The notes under the pieces are model-generated. The model was not told where the DNA came from, did no database searches, and saw only the letters and a list, made by a program, of their open reading frames with translations. From Eubacteriales bacterium (GTDB taxonomy: Bacteria > Bacillota > Clostridia > Oscillospirales > Oscillospiraceae): DNA of 33,816 bases. The stretch covers positions 1-33,816 of the forward strand of contig JAUNSH010000031.1 in the NCBI GenBank assembly GCA_030539285.1, given 5' to 3'. How positions within the stretch are numbered: the stretch's first letter is position 1; every line of letters starts with the position of its first letter. The translations under genes and the position numbers were made by a program. This document shows positions 18,462-23,191 of this stretch, piece by piece.

Positions 18462-18480
18462 ACCTTTTTATGGGTATTCT

Positions 18481-18572
18481 GCCTTTCCCTCCGACGGTGC
18501 TAACCGTATCAGGTTCACGGGTCAGAGCCAGCAGGCTCACTCTCAGCCGGATCCTTCCGGCCCCCCGAAGAC
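18481..18572 (-). promoter_or_regulatory. TPP riboswitch (THI element)
   Basis: The conserved aptamer elements read in order on the minus strand: GGGGGGCC, CTGAGAG (18540-18546), GACCCGTGAACCTGATACGG and TTAGCACCGTCGGAGGGAA. The ends can pair as P1 (GTCTT with AAGGC). It lies between a consensus promoter and a terminator ahead of thiT. Thiamine pyrophosphate would shut off thiT. Confidence 0.95.
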
Positions 18573-18593
18573 GTATTTGCTCAGCGTTCCAAT

Positions 18594-18622
18594 ATTATAT
18601 AGAAATTTGGGGAAAATGTCAA
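18594..18622 (-). promoter_or_regulatory. consensus promoter of thiT
   Basis: On the minus strand TTGACA (18617-18622), a 17-base spacer and TATAAT (18594-18599), both perfect. Transcription starts about 15 bases before the aptamer. Confidence 0.9.
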
Positions 18623-18666: not shown

Positions 18667-19095
18667 CTAAAAATAGAGTTCCGTGGCCAGATTTCCATGG
18701 ACGTACAGGCACACGGCCTTGCGTACAAAATCCTCCGTGACCCCGAAGCGCTCTGCCAGCTCCCAGACCTCGGTGCAGCCCTCCGCCACCGCTTCATCCA
18801 GATCGTCCACCGGGATCAGGGTCTGAATCGCCCACTTGTTGGCCTGATTCTCATGGCGCTGGCGGCAGTCCACGGCAGCGTAGCGGTTGTAGAAGCTGCC
18901 GGTGAGACAGTGGCCCAGCTCGTGGCCTAAGTGCACCCGCTCCTGGGCCCCGCCGTCCCGCACCCCCTCGTCCATGCCGATACAGCACCGCCCCTGCTCG
19001 TCCATCAGGGACATGGAGCCGGTCTGGGGCAGAGGAAAGCGATACACAGGAATATTCTGTTTCTGCGCAAGGGCATACAGAATGGGAATTTCCAT
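18667..19095 (-). CDS. ImmA/IrrE family metallo-endopeptidase
   Basis: A 142-residue zinc protease. HELGH (His58, Glu59, His62) is the zinc-binding and catalytic motif. HENQAN provides the usual third ligand (Glu82), followed by the typical A..WA..LL-like helix (KWAIQTLIP). These proteases cut a partner XRE repressor, as ImmA does to ImmR in ICEBs1 and IrrE does to DdrO. The gene starts two bases after the stop codon of the XRE gene, so the pair is one operon. No phage or conjugation genes are nearby, so it is not an obvious mobile-element module. Target cleavage is inferred. Confidence 0.88.
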   Translation of the reverse strand: MEIPILYALAQKQNIPVYRFPLPQTGSMSLMDEQGRCCIGMDEGVRDGGAQERVHLGHELGHCLTGSFYNRYAAVDCRQRHENQANKWAIQTLIPVDDLDEAVAEGCTEVWELAERFGVTEDFVRKAVCLYVHGNLATELYF

Positions 19096-19097
19096 GG

Positions 19098-19430
19098 TTA
19101 CTCCTTCTTTTCCGCCTCCCGCTGACGGACAAAGGCGGCAAACTGCCTGACCTCCTCGTACATGGCGTCGGTGATCTCCCCGTCGCCGCCGAAGAGGGCG
19201 AATTTGATATCGTCGTCGGTGACTTTCGGCTTTGACTCTTCCTGCCCGGTGAGCAGGTAGTCCGTGGTGACACCGAGGTACTCCGCCAATTTGGCGGCGG
19301 TGTTGCCGTTGGGTTTGCCCCCGGCCTTCCATTTGGCCACCGCGCTGCGGTTCAGGCCGATATCCGTGCAGGCCCGGTAAACGCTGACGCCCTTTTTCTC
19401 ACACAATGCCTGAAATCGATCAAAAAACAC
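19098..19430 (-). CDS. XRE family repressor
   Basis: A 110-residue regulator. The N-terminal helix-turn-helix (about 3-62) carries RACTDIGLNRSAVAKWKAGGKPNGNT and LAEYLGVTTDYLLTG, the standard XRE layout. The acidic C-terminal tail (DDDIKFALFGGDGEITDAM, then a basic helix) is of the type found in small ImmR-like repressors. The start codon is GTG 19430 after AGGGGGAG. It is divergent from the Spo0A-domain gene and likely binds the ACTAAAGT repeats in between. The ImmA-type protease downstream would relieve repression. Confidence 0.9.
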   Translation of the reverse strand: MFFDRFQALCEKKGVSVYRACTDIGLNRSAVAKWKAGGKPNGNTAAKLAEYLGVTTDYLLTGQEESKPKVTDDDIKFALFGGDGEITDAMYEEVRQFAAFVRQREAEKKE

Positions 19431-19469
19431 AAAAGCTCCCCCTAATCTTTGTGCAATTTGCAGAAGATT

Positions 19470-19604
19470 ACTAAAGTAGTCATTTTATGGGTTGACAGTC
19501 TTCTTTAGTCGTGGTATGATTCTGTCGGAAAGTTACTTTAGTATTCATTTTCTGCTATTTCCGGTTTGATACGCATAAATCATAGCATATTTGCATACTA
19601 AAGT
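19470..19604. promoter_or_regulatory. four ACTAAAGT-type operator sites
   Basis: The 8-mer ACTAAAGT or its complement occurs at 19470-19477 (+), 19502-19509 (-, 7 of 8), 19535-19542 (-) and 19597-19604 (+). Start-to-start spacings are 32, 33 and 62 bases, close to three, three and six helical turns. The second site lies inside the spacer of the plus-strand promoter, and the first and third flank it. This is a good candidate for cooperative binding by the XRE protein. Binding is inferred. Confidence 0.65.
19492..19520 (+). promoter_or_regulatory. promoter of the Spo0A-domain gene
   Basis: TTGACA (19492-19497), a 17-base spacer and TATGAT (19515-19520). The start would be near 19527, giving a leader of about 185 bases. 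The operator at 19502-19509 sits between the two boxes. Confidence 0.8.
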
Positions 19605-19613
19605 CAACCGCTC

Positions 19614-19630
19614 TGTCGACTTTTGTCGGA
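19614..19630 (+). promoter_or_regulatory. tandem 0A-box-like sites
   Basis: TGTCGAC (19614-19620) and TGTCGGA (19624-19630) are direct repeats spaced exactly 10 bases. They resemble the Spo0A box TGTCGAA. A third, TGTCGGAA, lies at 19523-19530 on the predicted start point. Known Spo0A DNA-binding domains bind tandem boxes at 10-base spacing. Self-binding by the product of the downstream gene is inferred. Confidence 0.45.
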
Positions 19631-19712
19631 TGCTTCTGTTCGTTACAAAATGTTACCACCGGAACCGTCCAACAAATCGGGTACAATTTATTTTTTACAG
19701 GAGGAACTTTAT

Positions 19713-20192
19713 ATGCGTGATTTGGAATTGCAGGTAGACACCCTCATGCGGCTGTGCACCGCGGAGACCCTCACGGAACAAGCCAGGGCAAAGCGGGAGC
19801 TGAAACAGCTGATGGAGTACCCCCAGCTTAACCGGAAGGACCCGGAATATCTGGTCCGGCGGATCCTGCTGGAAATGGGCACCCCGGACCATCTGGTGGG
19901 CCACCCTTACGTGGTAGAGGCGGTGCTGATGGCGGTGGAGAACCGCTATTACATCAACAACATCACTTTCGGGCTGTACCCCCAGATCGCCGCGAAATTC
20001 GACACCACCGCCTCCCGGGTGGAGCGGGGCATCCGCCATCTCATTGAGCTGACCTGGACACGGGGGGACATGGACATTCTGTGTTCCTTTTTCGGCAACA
20101 CCGTCAACCCCGACCGGGGCAAGCCCACCAACGGGGAATTCATCGCAAGGCTTACCAATATCGTCCAGCAGCAGATGAAGGAGGCGGCCTGA
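19713..20192 (+). CDS. stand-alone Spo0A-type DNA-binding domain protein
   Basis: A 159-residue protein. Residues of about 46-155 match the Spo0A effector domain: LLEMGTPDHLVGHPYVVEA, LYPQIAAKFDTTASRVERGI with RHLIELTWTRGD, and KPTNGEFIARL. The DNA-recognition stretch TTASRVER is the same as in Spo0A. The phosphoacceptor receiver domain is absent; residues 1-45 form only a short helical segment. It therefore cannot be controlled by the phosphorelay in the usual way. AGGAGGA precedes ATG 19713. It is divergent from XRE-immA and shares their operator region. It could be a dominant competitor of, or substitute for, Spo0A at 0A boxes. Confidence 0.9.
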   Translation: MRDLELQVDTLMRLCTAETLTEQARAKRELKQLMEYPQLNRKDPEYLVRRILLEMGTPDHLVGHPYVVEAVLMAVENRYYINNITFGLYPQIAAKFDTTASRVERGIRHLIELTWTRGDMDILCSFFGNTVNPDRGKPTNGEFIARLTNIVQQQMKEAA

Positions 20193-21548: not shown

Positions 21549-22919
21549 TTATTCTCCCAGCGCCCGGGACACCGCCACCATGATGGCGCACTCCATGCGC
21601 TTGCGGAACAGCTTGCAGCCCTGCTCATACACGCCCGTGACGGCGCCGGTGGCGTGGTAGGCGTTGGCGGCGCAGCCCCCGGAGCAGTACAGCCGCGCCC
21701 AGCAGTCCCGGCACTCGGGATGGGCGTAGACGTTGCAGGCGGCGAACTCGCTCTGGATTTCGGTGTTGGTCACCCCATCCCAGATGTTGCCCAGCCTGAA
21801 CCGCTCCTCGCCCACGAACTGGTGGCAGGGGTACAGGTCGCCCCAGGGGGTCACCGCCATGTACTCGGTGCCGCTGCCGCAGCCGGAAATGCGCTTGTAA
21901 ATGCAGGGACCGCCGGTAAGGTCGATCATATAATGGTAGAAGGTGAAGGGTTTTCCCTCTTTGTCCCGTTCCAGCATCAGCTGGGCCAGCTTTTCATACT
22001 GCTCCATAACGACGGGCAGATCTTCCTCGGTAAGGGCGGAGGGGTCCCCGGCGGCGCAGACCACCGGCTCCATGCTCAGCTCGGTAAAGCCCAGATCCAG
22101 CATCTGCTGAATGTCCTTGAGGAAATCGGGGTTGTGGTGGGTGAAGGTGCCCCGCATATAGTAATCCTTGCCGCCCCGGGCCTCCACGAATTTCTGGAAC
22201 TTGGGCACGATCTTCTCCCAGCTGCCATTTCCCGCATAGTCCACCCGGAAGCGGTCGTGGACCTCCTTCCGTCCGTCCAGGCTCAGCACCACGTTGCTGC
22301 ACTCTTTGTTCGCCCATTCGATCACGTCATCGTCCACCAGCACGCCGTTGGTGGTCAGGGTGAAGCGGAAATTCTTCCCCTTTTCCTTCTCAATGCTCCG
22401 AGCATAGGCCACCAGATCCTTCACCACCTGGAAGTTCATCAGCGGCTCCCCGCCGAAGAAGTCCACTTCCAGATTCCGCCGGGTGCCGGAGTGCTCGATG
22501 AGGAAATCCAGCGCCCGCTTGCCCACCTCGAAGGACATAATTGCCCGCTCGCCGTGGTACTTGCCCTGACTGGCGAAGCAGTAGGAGCAGTTTAAGTTGC
22601 AGGTGTGGGCGATGTGCAGGCACAGGGCCTTAACAACGCCCGCGGTCTTCTGCTTAAGCTTTCCCGCCATAGGCTCGAAGGTATCGGGAGCGAACAGCTT
22701 GCCCGCGTCCTTCAATTCTTCCACCTGAGAATAGCATTGGGCCAATTCCTCAGCGGACAGGTCGGGATATTTTTCCGCCATAGCGGCGAGAATTTCCTCC
22801 CGGCTGCGGCTTTCAAACAGGGAAATGATATCGTAGGCAGCTTCATCCACCACGTGCACCGCCCCGGAGCATACGTCCAGCACGATGTTGTAGCCGCCCA
22901 ATTTATATTGATGAATCAT
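21549..22919 (-). CDS. scfB: SCIFF radical SAM thioether maturase
   Basis: A 456-residue radical SAM/SPASM enzyme that forms Cys-to-carbon thioether links in the SCIFF peptide. An N-terminal peptide-recognition (RRE-like) domain (about 1-90) begins MIHQYKLGGYNIVLDVCSG, which is characteristic of the family. The radical SAM cluster motif CNLNCSYC has Cys107, Cys111 and Cys114. GGEPLMNF and the C-terminal SPASM Cys set (CGSGTEY, YPCHQF, CRDCWARLYCSGGC) hold auxiliary 4Fe-4S clusters. ATG 22919 follows AAGGAGA; the ATG at 22934 would overlap that site. The gene lies directly downstream of its precursor gene. Confidence 0.97.
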   Translation of the reverse strand: MIHQYKLGGYNIVLDVCSGAVHVVDEAAYDIISLFESRSREEILAAMAEKYPDLSAEELAQCYSQVEELKDAGKLFAPDTFEPMAGKLKQKTAGVVKALCLHIAHTCNLNCSYCFASQGKYHGERAIMSFEVGKRALDFLIEHSGTRRNLEVDFFGGEPLMNFQVVKDLVAYARSIEKEKGKNFRFTLTTNGVLVDDDVIEWANKECSNVVLSLDGRKEVHDRFRVDYAGNGSWEKIVPKFQKFVEARGGKDYYMRGTFTHHNPDFLKDIQQMLDLGFTELSMEPVVCAAGDPSALTEEDLPVVMEQYEKLAQLMLERDKEGKPFTFYHYMIDLTGGPCIYKRISGCGSGTEYMAVTPWGDLYPCHQFVGEERFRLGNIWDGVTNTEIQSEFAACNVYAHPECRDCWARLYCSGGCAANAYHATGAVTGVYEQGCKLFRKRMECAIMVAVSRALGE

Positions 22920-22939
22920 AGCGTTCTCCTTCATAAAAA

Positions 22940-22959
22940 ATGCCGCCTTCCGGCGGCAT
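22940..22959 (-). terminator. hairpin between scfA and scfB
   Basis: TGCCGCC (22941-22947) pairs with GGCGGCA (22952-22958), plus an A-T closing pair. On the minus strand it is followed by TTTTTT. Partial termination here would give more precursor than maturase mRNA. Confidence 0.75.
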
Positions 22960-22969
22960 CCTTGTGCAA

Positions 22970-23122
22970 TTACTTGCTTTCCTTAGCGCTCTCGCACTTC
23001 TGGTTGGCAATGCCGCAGCTGGTCTTGCAGGCGGACTGGCAGGAGGTCTGGCATTCGCCGCAGCCGCCGCTTCTGACGCTGTCGCACAGGTTACGGGTCT
23101 CGATGGTCTTGATGTGCTCCAT
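22970..23122 (-). CDS. scfA: SCIFF ribosomal peptide precursor
   Basis: A 50-residue precursor of the six-cysteines-in-forty-five class. The leader MEHIKTIETRNL is followed by the hallmark core GGCGECQTSCQSACKTSC and a further Cys at residue 43. The six family cysteines are 21, 24, 28, 32, 36 and 43. An additional Cys at 13 lies in the leader, where the family more often has other residues. AAGGTG precedes the ATG. ScfB would install thioether bridges. The final product and role of SCIFF peptides are still unknown. Confidence 0.97.
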   Translation of the reverse strand: MEHIKTIETRNLCDSVRSGGCGECQTSCQSACKTSCGIANQKCESAKESK

Positions 23123-23162
23123 GGTTTTCACCTTCCATATTCTTATAAAATTCTTCCCGCCC

Positions 23163-23191
23163 ACTTTACCATAAGCGGGGGAAGCTGTCAA
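23163..23191 (-). promoter_or_regulatory. promoter of scfA
   Basis: On the minus strand TTGACA (23186-23191), a 17-base spacer and TAAAGT (23163-23168), with the start about 35 bases before the scfA ATG. Confidence 0.7.

Follow-up and report, generated by a model that had tools for sequence, protein, structure and literature searches.

The window, i.e., the whole stretch of 33,816 nucleotides analyzed (Eubacteriales bacterium, assembly GCA_030539285.1, contig JAUNSH010000031.1), harbours a compact locus of three genes (Table 1). Genes for an XRE repressor and an M78 metallopeptidase form one operon, immA starting 2 nt downstream of xre, and are oriented divergently from spo0AC, which codes for a Spo0A effector domain. 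The first-pass annotation had described a tight xre-immA operon opposite a Spo0A effector domain lacking its receiver, and this was borne out by coordinates, Pfam and NCBIfam. Neighbouring genes code for a ThiT transporter, for an enzyme resembling amylases and a protein resembling decarboxylases, and for a SCIFF peptide together with its maturase. No phage-structural gene was detected among the nine window proteins scanned in and around the locus (the rest of the contig was read as ORFs only), the integrase, structural and transfer genes of an intact prophage or ICE were not found around the window copy, and the family scan of neighbouring proteins revealed no defence gene beside it. The earlier statement that phage and ICE genes are missing from the surroundings holds for the flanks of the window copy, but not for the parts themselves, which belong to a prophage immunity and early-gene set. 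A TPP riboswitch (18469–18622, minus strand) with a perfect promoter-like site (12/12) is located ahead of thiT, and the SCIFF ranthipeptide and its radical SAM maturase (21549–23191, minus strand) form the usual pair.

Table 1 Features of the xre-immA/spo0AC locus (positions refer to the window; promoter, operator and binding-site assignments are predictions)
Feature	Position	Strand	Characteristics
immA, M78/ImmA-type metallopeptidase gene	18667–19095	−	142 aa; Peptidase_M78, E 2.7e-9
xre, repressor gene	19098–19430	−	110 aa; GTG start; Pfam HTH_3, E 6.5e-8
Constant C-terminal tail of XRE, putative ImmA recognition/cleavage region	19101–19223	−	median identity 72 % vs 31 % for HTH part (31 XREs)
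O1, operator-like palindrome upstream of PR	19468–19479		TTACTNNAGTAA, 1 mismatch; 15/15 type-A loci
PR, rightward promoter-like site towards spo0AC	19492–19520	+	TTGACA-17-TATGAT with TG, 11/12
O2, degenerate operator-like site in PR spacer	19500–19509		inverted-repeat arm; 7/10 reached in 8/15 type-A loci, the window not being one of them
O3, operator-like palindrome between PR and PL	19533–19544		1 mismatch; 15/15 type-A loci
PL, leftward promoter-like site towards xre-immA	19579–19607	−	TTGACT-17-TATGAT with TG, 10/12
O4, operator-like palindrome over PL −35	19595–19606		2 mismatches; 14/15 type-A loci, absent from L061
Tandem 0A-box-like site adjoining PL −35	19614–19630	+	cores 10 bp apart; only TGTCGN5TGTCG in window, 0.06 expected
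Third promoter-like element, leftward	19650–19682	−	dyad 19667–19682; −10-like TAACAT 19650–19655
spo0AC, Spo0A effector domain, N-terminal helical hairpin replacing receiver	19713–20192	+	159 aa; ATG at 19713, stop ending at 20192; Spo0A_C, E 1.3e-33

Six Spo0A_C matches were identified in the own genome, and the frame of one of them, at 270 aa, fits canonical Spo0A. Since a SpoIVA match is likewise present, the organism is a probable spore-former. In two genomes, a short Spo0A_C piece (G000:C66:29102–29314, i.e., L003, and G030:C47:87075–87305, in frames of 95 and 94 aa, respectively) resides about 8 kb from canonical spo0A on the same contig.

The Spo0A_C domain spans residues 48–149 of Spo0AC (Pfam). 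Neither Pfam nor NCBIfam reported a receiver family for the protein, and its NCBIfam spore_0_A score (125) stays below the cut-off of 200. The best solved relative is 1LQ1, by sequence (E 6.2e-35) as well as by fold (E 2.7e-6, 42 % identity), and the AF2 model (mean pLDDT 83.9) displays a helical hairpin where the receiver would be. Ranks 1–7 in BFVD are held by phage Spo0A_C proteins (E 2e-8 to 0.34; two at E ≤ 0.001). The Spo0A fold and recognition region are kept. A tree of 34 rows groups the 14 canonical Spo0A proteins in one clade (100/99), with the 20 stand-alone proteins outside; owing to long branches its internal order is uncertain, and it does not separate modules from prophages. Because the module Spo0AC falls outside the canonical clade, it does not represent a fresh truncation of the resident spo0A. 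Some modules and prophages encode, directly ahead of Spo0AC, a small protein that by eye looks membrane-bound (intergenics of L058, L059, L123, L128 and L012; L043:9167–9511; L150:6500–6865).

The isolated DNA-binding domain of Spo0A is reported to bind Spo0A targets without phosphorylation, G2, C4 and G5 of TGTCGAA being contacted (PMC3485338). Downstream of the recognition helix, Spo0AC reads FGNTV vs FGYTV in canonical Spo0A. This exchange, together with the reported lowering of spore yield by phage sigma factors (PMC10294663), would suit a Spo0AC that acts in the same switch as a blocker, filling 0A boxes without activating and barring sporulation while on. In a phage, lytic growth would then be protected from entrapment; in a chromosome, dormancy would be delayed. 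Overall, however, the domain is well conserved, and we regard the blocker as a minor possibility.

Within the control region between xre and spo0AC, PR and PL stand face-to-face, each −10 being preceded by TG (3 sites in the scanned stretch vs 0.7 expected), and PR is recognizable by eye across the aligned intergenics. The palindrome count was matched by at most 2.5 % of shuffles in 13 of the 15 type-A loci (L051, 6.5 %; L061, 5.5 %). Counted over the entire window, matches to the loose operator pattern do not exceed expectation (4 found vs 3.7 expected), and the argument for operators therefore rests on comparison between loci. At L058 and L059, the XRE heads of which share 22 and 18 % identity with that of the window, respectively, type-A palindromes do not exceed chance, and CAAGAAACTTG palindromes occupy the corresponding places around PR. 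By eye, the same swap is evident at L123, which has a like head, and TTGGCG...CGCCAA palindromes accompany the third head of L012/L041. The palindromes thus change where the XRE head changes, as joint replacement of repressor and operator predicts. At least three such types of heads and operators exist, as would also be expected for the immunity types of a resident immunity or defence cassette, in which XRE would silence incoming phages whose operators are similar and Spo0AC would drive damaged or infected cells into dormancy. Considering that the window copy is without a recognized defence gene at its side, we judge this explanation to be quite unlikely.

With one mismatch allowed, the tandem 0A-like site is shared by 7 of the 25 modules, all of the window's clade, and 0A boxes as a property of all modules were ruled out on this count. 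Its place beside PL and the lead position of spo0AC among the rightward genes of most modules are compatible with Spo0AC as a Cro-like partner of the switch, regulating this locus only and not the Spo0A regulon. The absence of the site from the other 18 modules speaks against such a role, which is considered unlikely.

A search of genomes for the three-gene arrangement, proposed as a check along with the initial description, revealed the trio to be conserved. It is present in at least 6 of 60 relatives (own genome counted). A pattern-based scan of named species genomes detected xre-immA divergent from spo0AC in the same order in 16 of 18 loci, all from MAGs assigned to Clostridiales, Clostridia, Eubacteriales, Oscillospiraceae and one Candidatus Faecousia faecavium; xre-immA is missing at L062 (residues 30–159) and L063 (75 residues). 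Profile scans of 136 genus genomes, which overlap with the 18-locus set in some assemblies, located the trio at 26 places in 25 genomes. The ImmA profile yielded 40 strong places (E ≤ 1e-57) in 39 of these genomes, plus one truncated at a contig end (G143). No Spo0AC was found at 14 of the 40, the contig ending soon past xre in at least three cases (L139, L142, L145). Across the order, only the own genome matched among 394 at E ≤ 1e-46, a threshold that would miss distant versions.

Of 26 Spo0AC matches at E ≤ 1e-59 in the genus, 25 adjoin this ImmA; the sole exception (G114:C19) carries two stops. A further Spo0AC (G031:C132, E 1.2e-52) adjoins ImmA and has one stop in spo0AC. Conservation of the trio excludes a chance arrangement. 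The reading of the operon as a toxin-antitoxin-like Xre/COG2856 pair that has spo0AC beside it by chance is very improbable: such pairs do occur in toxin-antitoxin surveys, but the close association with Spo0AC and the palindromes overlapping the spo0AC promoter argue against it. The right flank of the window is common to six named loci (L047–L052), five of which also possess thiT, and the window's flank neighbours were not found at the remaining loci of the 18. By eye, spoIIP-like and glycerol-kinase-like genes surround L054, and a tyrosine-recombinase-like gene is located near L058 and L059. Median dN/dS values are 0.083 for xre, 0.089 for immA and 0.190 for spo0AC (7 window-clade sequences, 21 pairs), the latter being lower for residues 46–159 (0.11) than for residues 1–45 (0.24). 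Since these values are low in all three genes, the locus is not a decaying scar; the module is real, conserved and under purifying selection throughout.

The XRE repressors combine variable heads with a constant tail. Median identity amounts to 72 % for the last ~40 residues vs 31 % for the HTH part (465 pairs of 31 XREs out of 41 places, 17 from modules and 14 from other loci). A profile built from 16 tails matched 43 places in the 136 genomes, and all 41 at E ≤ 1e-15 adjoin this ImmA subtype; two weaker matches (G091:C112 and G141:C19) lie away from it. In the XREs of L142 and L144, two tandem HTH units precede the same constant tail, again with the same ImmA adjacent. The HELGH (HEXXH) motif is invariant in 13 of 13 aligned ImmA proteins. 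A comparison of ImmA with solved structures gave no match. ImmA of ICEBs1 is described to cut ImmR at F95–M96 in the linker between two C-terminal helices, and ImmR to have six binding sites across both promoters (PMC8960796). Constancy of the tail, its one-to-one association with ImmA and the C-terminal cut in ICEBs1 suggest that the tail is what ImmA reads and cleaves.

A third promoter-like element precedes the first rightward gene in all 25 modules. Its dyad GTCCGnTTTRTYGGAC (read leftward; pattern widened by hand for L012, L119 and L130) is followed by TANNNT at exactly 11 nt in every one of them. Outside the modules, this distance recurs in 39 of 46 distinct sites (L072–L079 and L186–L252, same-gene sites in related genomes not being independent), whereas each other distance of 6–19 nt accounts for 6 sites at most. 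The same spacing to TANNNT is seen at coding murB sites, which were omitted from the later pattern. Across the genus, a related pattern was detected in 72 of the 136 genomes (162 matches, module sites counted, vs 4 for the reversed control), and genes in promoter direction include, by eye, truA and those for UvrD/PcrA-like helicase, HD/Cas3-like, Cas5-like, Vsr-like and NrdD-like proteins. By analogy with lambda pRE, which drives expression of the lambda repressor, the element inside the module would feed xre-immA. Its layout resembles that of a mycobacterial promoter, tTGTCRgtg-8nt-TannnT (PMC5656591). Two other assignments of the dyad were considered. A LexA box seems less likely: the own lexA promoter lacks the dyad, and none was found ahead of recA in 10 genomes, gene starts having been missed in several of these. 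A Spo0AC site, suggested by module carriers having more sites among 30 chosen genomes, was dismissed, since many of the 72 genomes are without the module.

The same ImmA/XRE family also occurs in prophages, and stand-alone Spo0A effector domains occur in prophage early operons. The L150 prophage encodes, in this order, an integrase, a metallo-protease, a repressor, a Cro/CII-like HTH protein, a 121-aa protein, membrane-bound by look, Spo0AC, an SbcC-like protein, a Sak4-like protein and a helicase. Stand-alone Spo0AC is likewise encoded in L042 (with integrase and exonuclease VIII) and L043 (with SSB and primase/helicase), and visual inspection of L154 suggests a tyrosine integrase as well as a repressor resembling LexA. 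Six proteins from six of the 14 Spo0AC-free ImmA loci were compared with PHROGs; five matched, namely as terminase large subunit (L140, L141), SbcC-like protein (L136), internal virion protein (L137) and replication initiation protein (L146), and that of L138 did not. Direct phage records gave 14 matches; the five inspected (H1, H3, H4, H6, H9) contain full-length Spo0A among chromosomal genes and were set aside as bacterial contigs by look. Phage-filed records with such content are L065–L069 (MT836727, MT835781, MT835737, MT835504, MT835718). Plasmid records gave four matches, the one inspected (H15) likewise containing a full-length Spo0A, and one viral_contigs scan with A1 detected no relative.

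Taken as a whole, the locus is best read as a prophage-derived switch of the ImmR/ImmA type, retained without the phage and having a phosphorylation-independent Spo0A mimic as output, which we consider probable. XRE would bind the operators, repress PR and control its own PL. Upon a signal, by analogy DNA damage, ImmA would cleave XRE in the constant tail, PR would fire and Spo0AC would be made. Having no receiver, Spo0AC would not be held inactive; judging from its family, it would bind 0A boxes without phosphorylation and elicit a Spo0A-type output bypassing the kinases. The tandem site by PL may, within the window's clade, be bound by Spo0AC or the host Spo0A, with feedback on xre-immA. For early sporulation genes, we lean slightly towards activation over competition with phosphorylated Spo0A. 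The reading is supported by the conserved and selected trio, the occurrence of its parts among phage genes, the facing promoters with palindromes that follow the XRE head, the pairing of tail and ImmA, the kept Spo0A fold and the ICEBs1 precedent. Weighing against it are the lack of an excess of the loose operator pattern in the window, the shuffle values above 5 % in two type-A loci, the restriction of the tandem site to 7 modules, the 14 ImmA places without Spo0AC, the stop in the G031 copy and the lack of a structural match for ImmA.

The first-pass proposal of a proteolysis-gated switch is strengthened in that the conserved unit is built like a repressor switch gated by a protease, and the phosphorelay bypass proposed with it gains from the isolated Spo0A DNA-binding domain being expected to act without phosphorylation (PMC3485338). 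The proposal was to fall if the neighbourhood proved unconserved in relatives, and it withstood this check. The system stands as a conserved module. It is not the wholly new one initially supposed, because its parts are a prophage immunity and early-gene set and gut-phage spo0A homologues without receiver are already published (PMC10294663). The literature search covered Spo0A with ImmA/ImmR, stand-alone, phage-encoded, truncated or paralogous Spo0A, and gut phage sporulation genes, most subscription journals lying outside its scope; apart from PMC10294663, no title or beginning of an abstract among the matches listed described the module. Nor did these matches include a description of a phage-free conserved switch, a constant-tail repressor or a genus-wide promoter-like element.

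Some gut bacteria appear to carry a virus-type on/off switch without the rest of the virus, apparently poised to release a pared-down version of the master regulator of sporulation, which could add a second way to steer dormancy. More tentatively, and with less than even confidence, a phage lysogeny switch may have been domesticated in the genus, giving the Spo0A regulon a second input that is independent of kinases, senses damage or another signal via ImmA, combines exchangeable DNA-binding heads with one constant tail readable by the protease, and either commits cells to the Spo0A programme or bars them from it. If so, entry into sporulation would have a phage-inherited input outside kinase/phosphatase control, linking damage or infection to dormancy. 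The constant tail would provide a clear model of one protease serving repressors of different DNA specificity.

Among known systems, the module is best placed with the ImmR/ImmA switches, its probable output being Spo0A-like. As in ICEBs1, an operon for an XRE repressor and an M78-type protease is divergent from the gene controlled, and several operator-like sites, here predicted from sequence, lie at two promoters. In contrast to ICEBs1, which controls excision and conjugation genes, the module would control a Spo0A effector domain, its window copy has no mobile element around it, and its repressors join varying HTH heads to an unchanging tail. An effector domain without receiver is shared with the gut-phage Spo0A of Schwartz et al. 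2023 (PMC10294663); the module differs in being a chromosomal three-gene unit with its own immunity switch, and such a unit is not described in the portion of that paper considered. With Spo0A of B. subtilis and C. difficile, Spo0AC shares the DNA-binding domain, as reflected by 1LQ1, but it lacks the receiver, scores below the spore_0_A cut-off and lies outside the canonical clade. The lysis/lysogeny promoters of coliphages 186 and P2 stand face-to-face. The module resembles them in that its predicted early and repressor promoters converge and operator-like sites lie between and over these, and differs in that the proteins are unrelated and its repressor would be inactivated by a protease.
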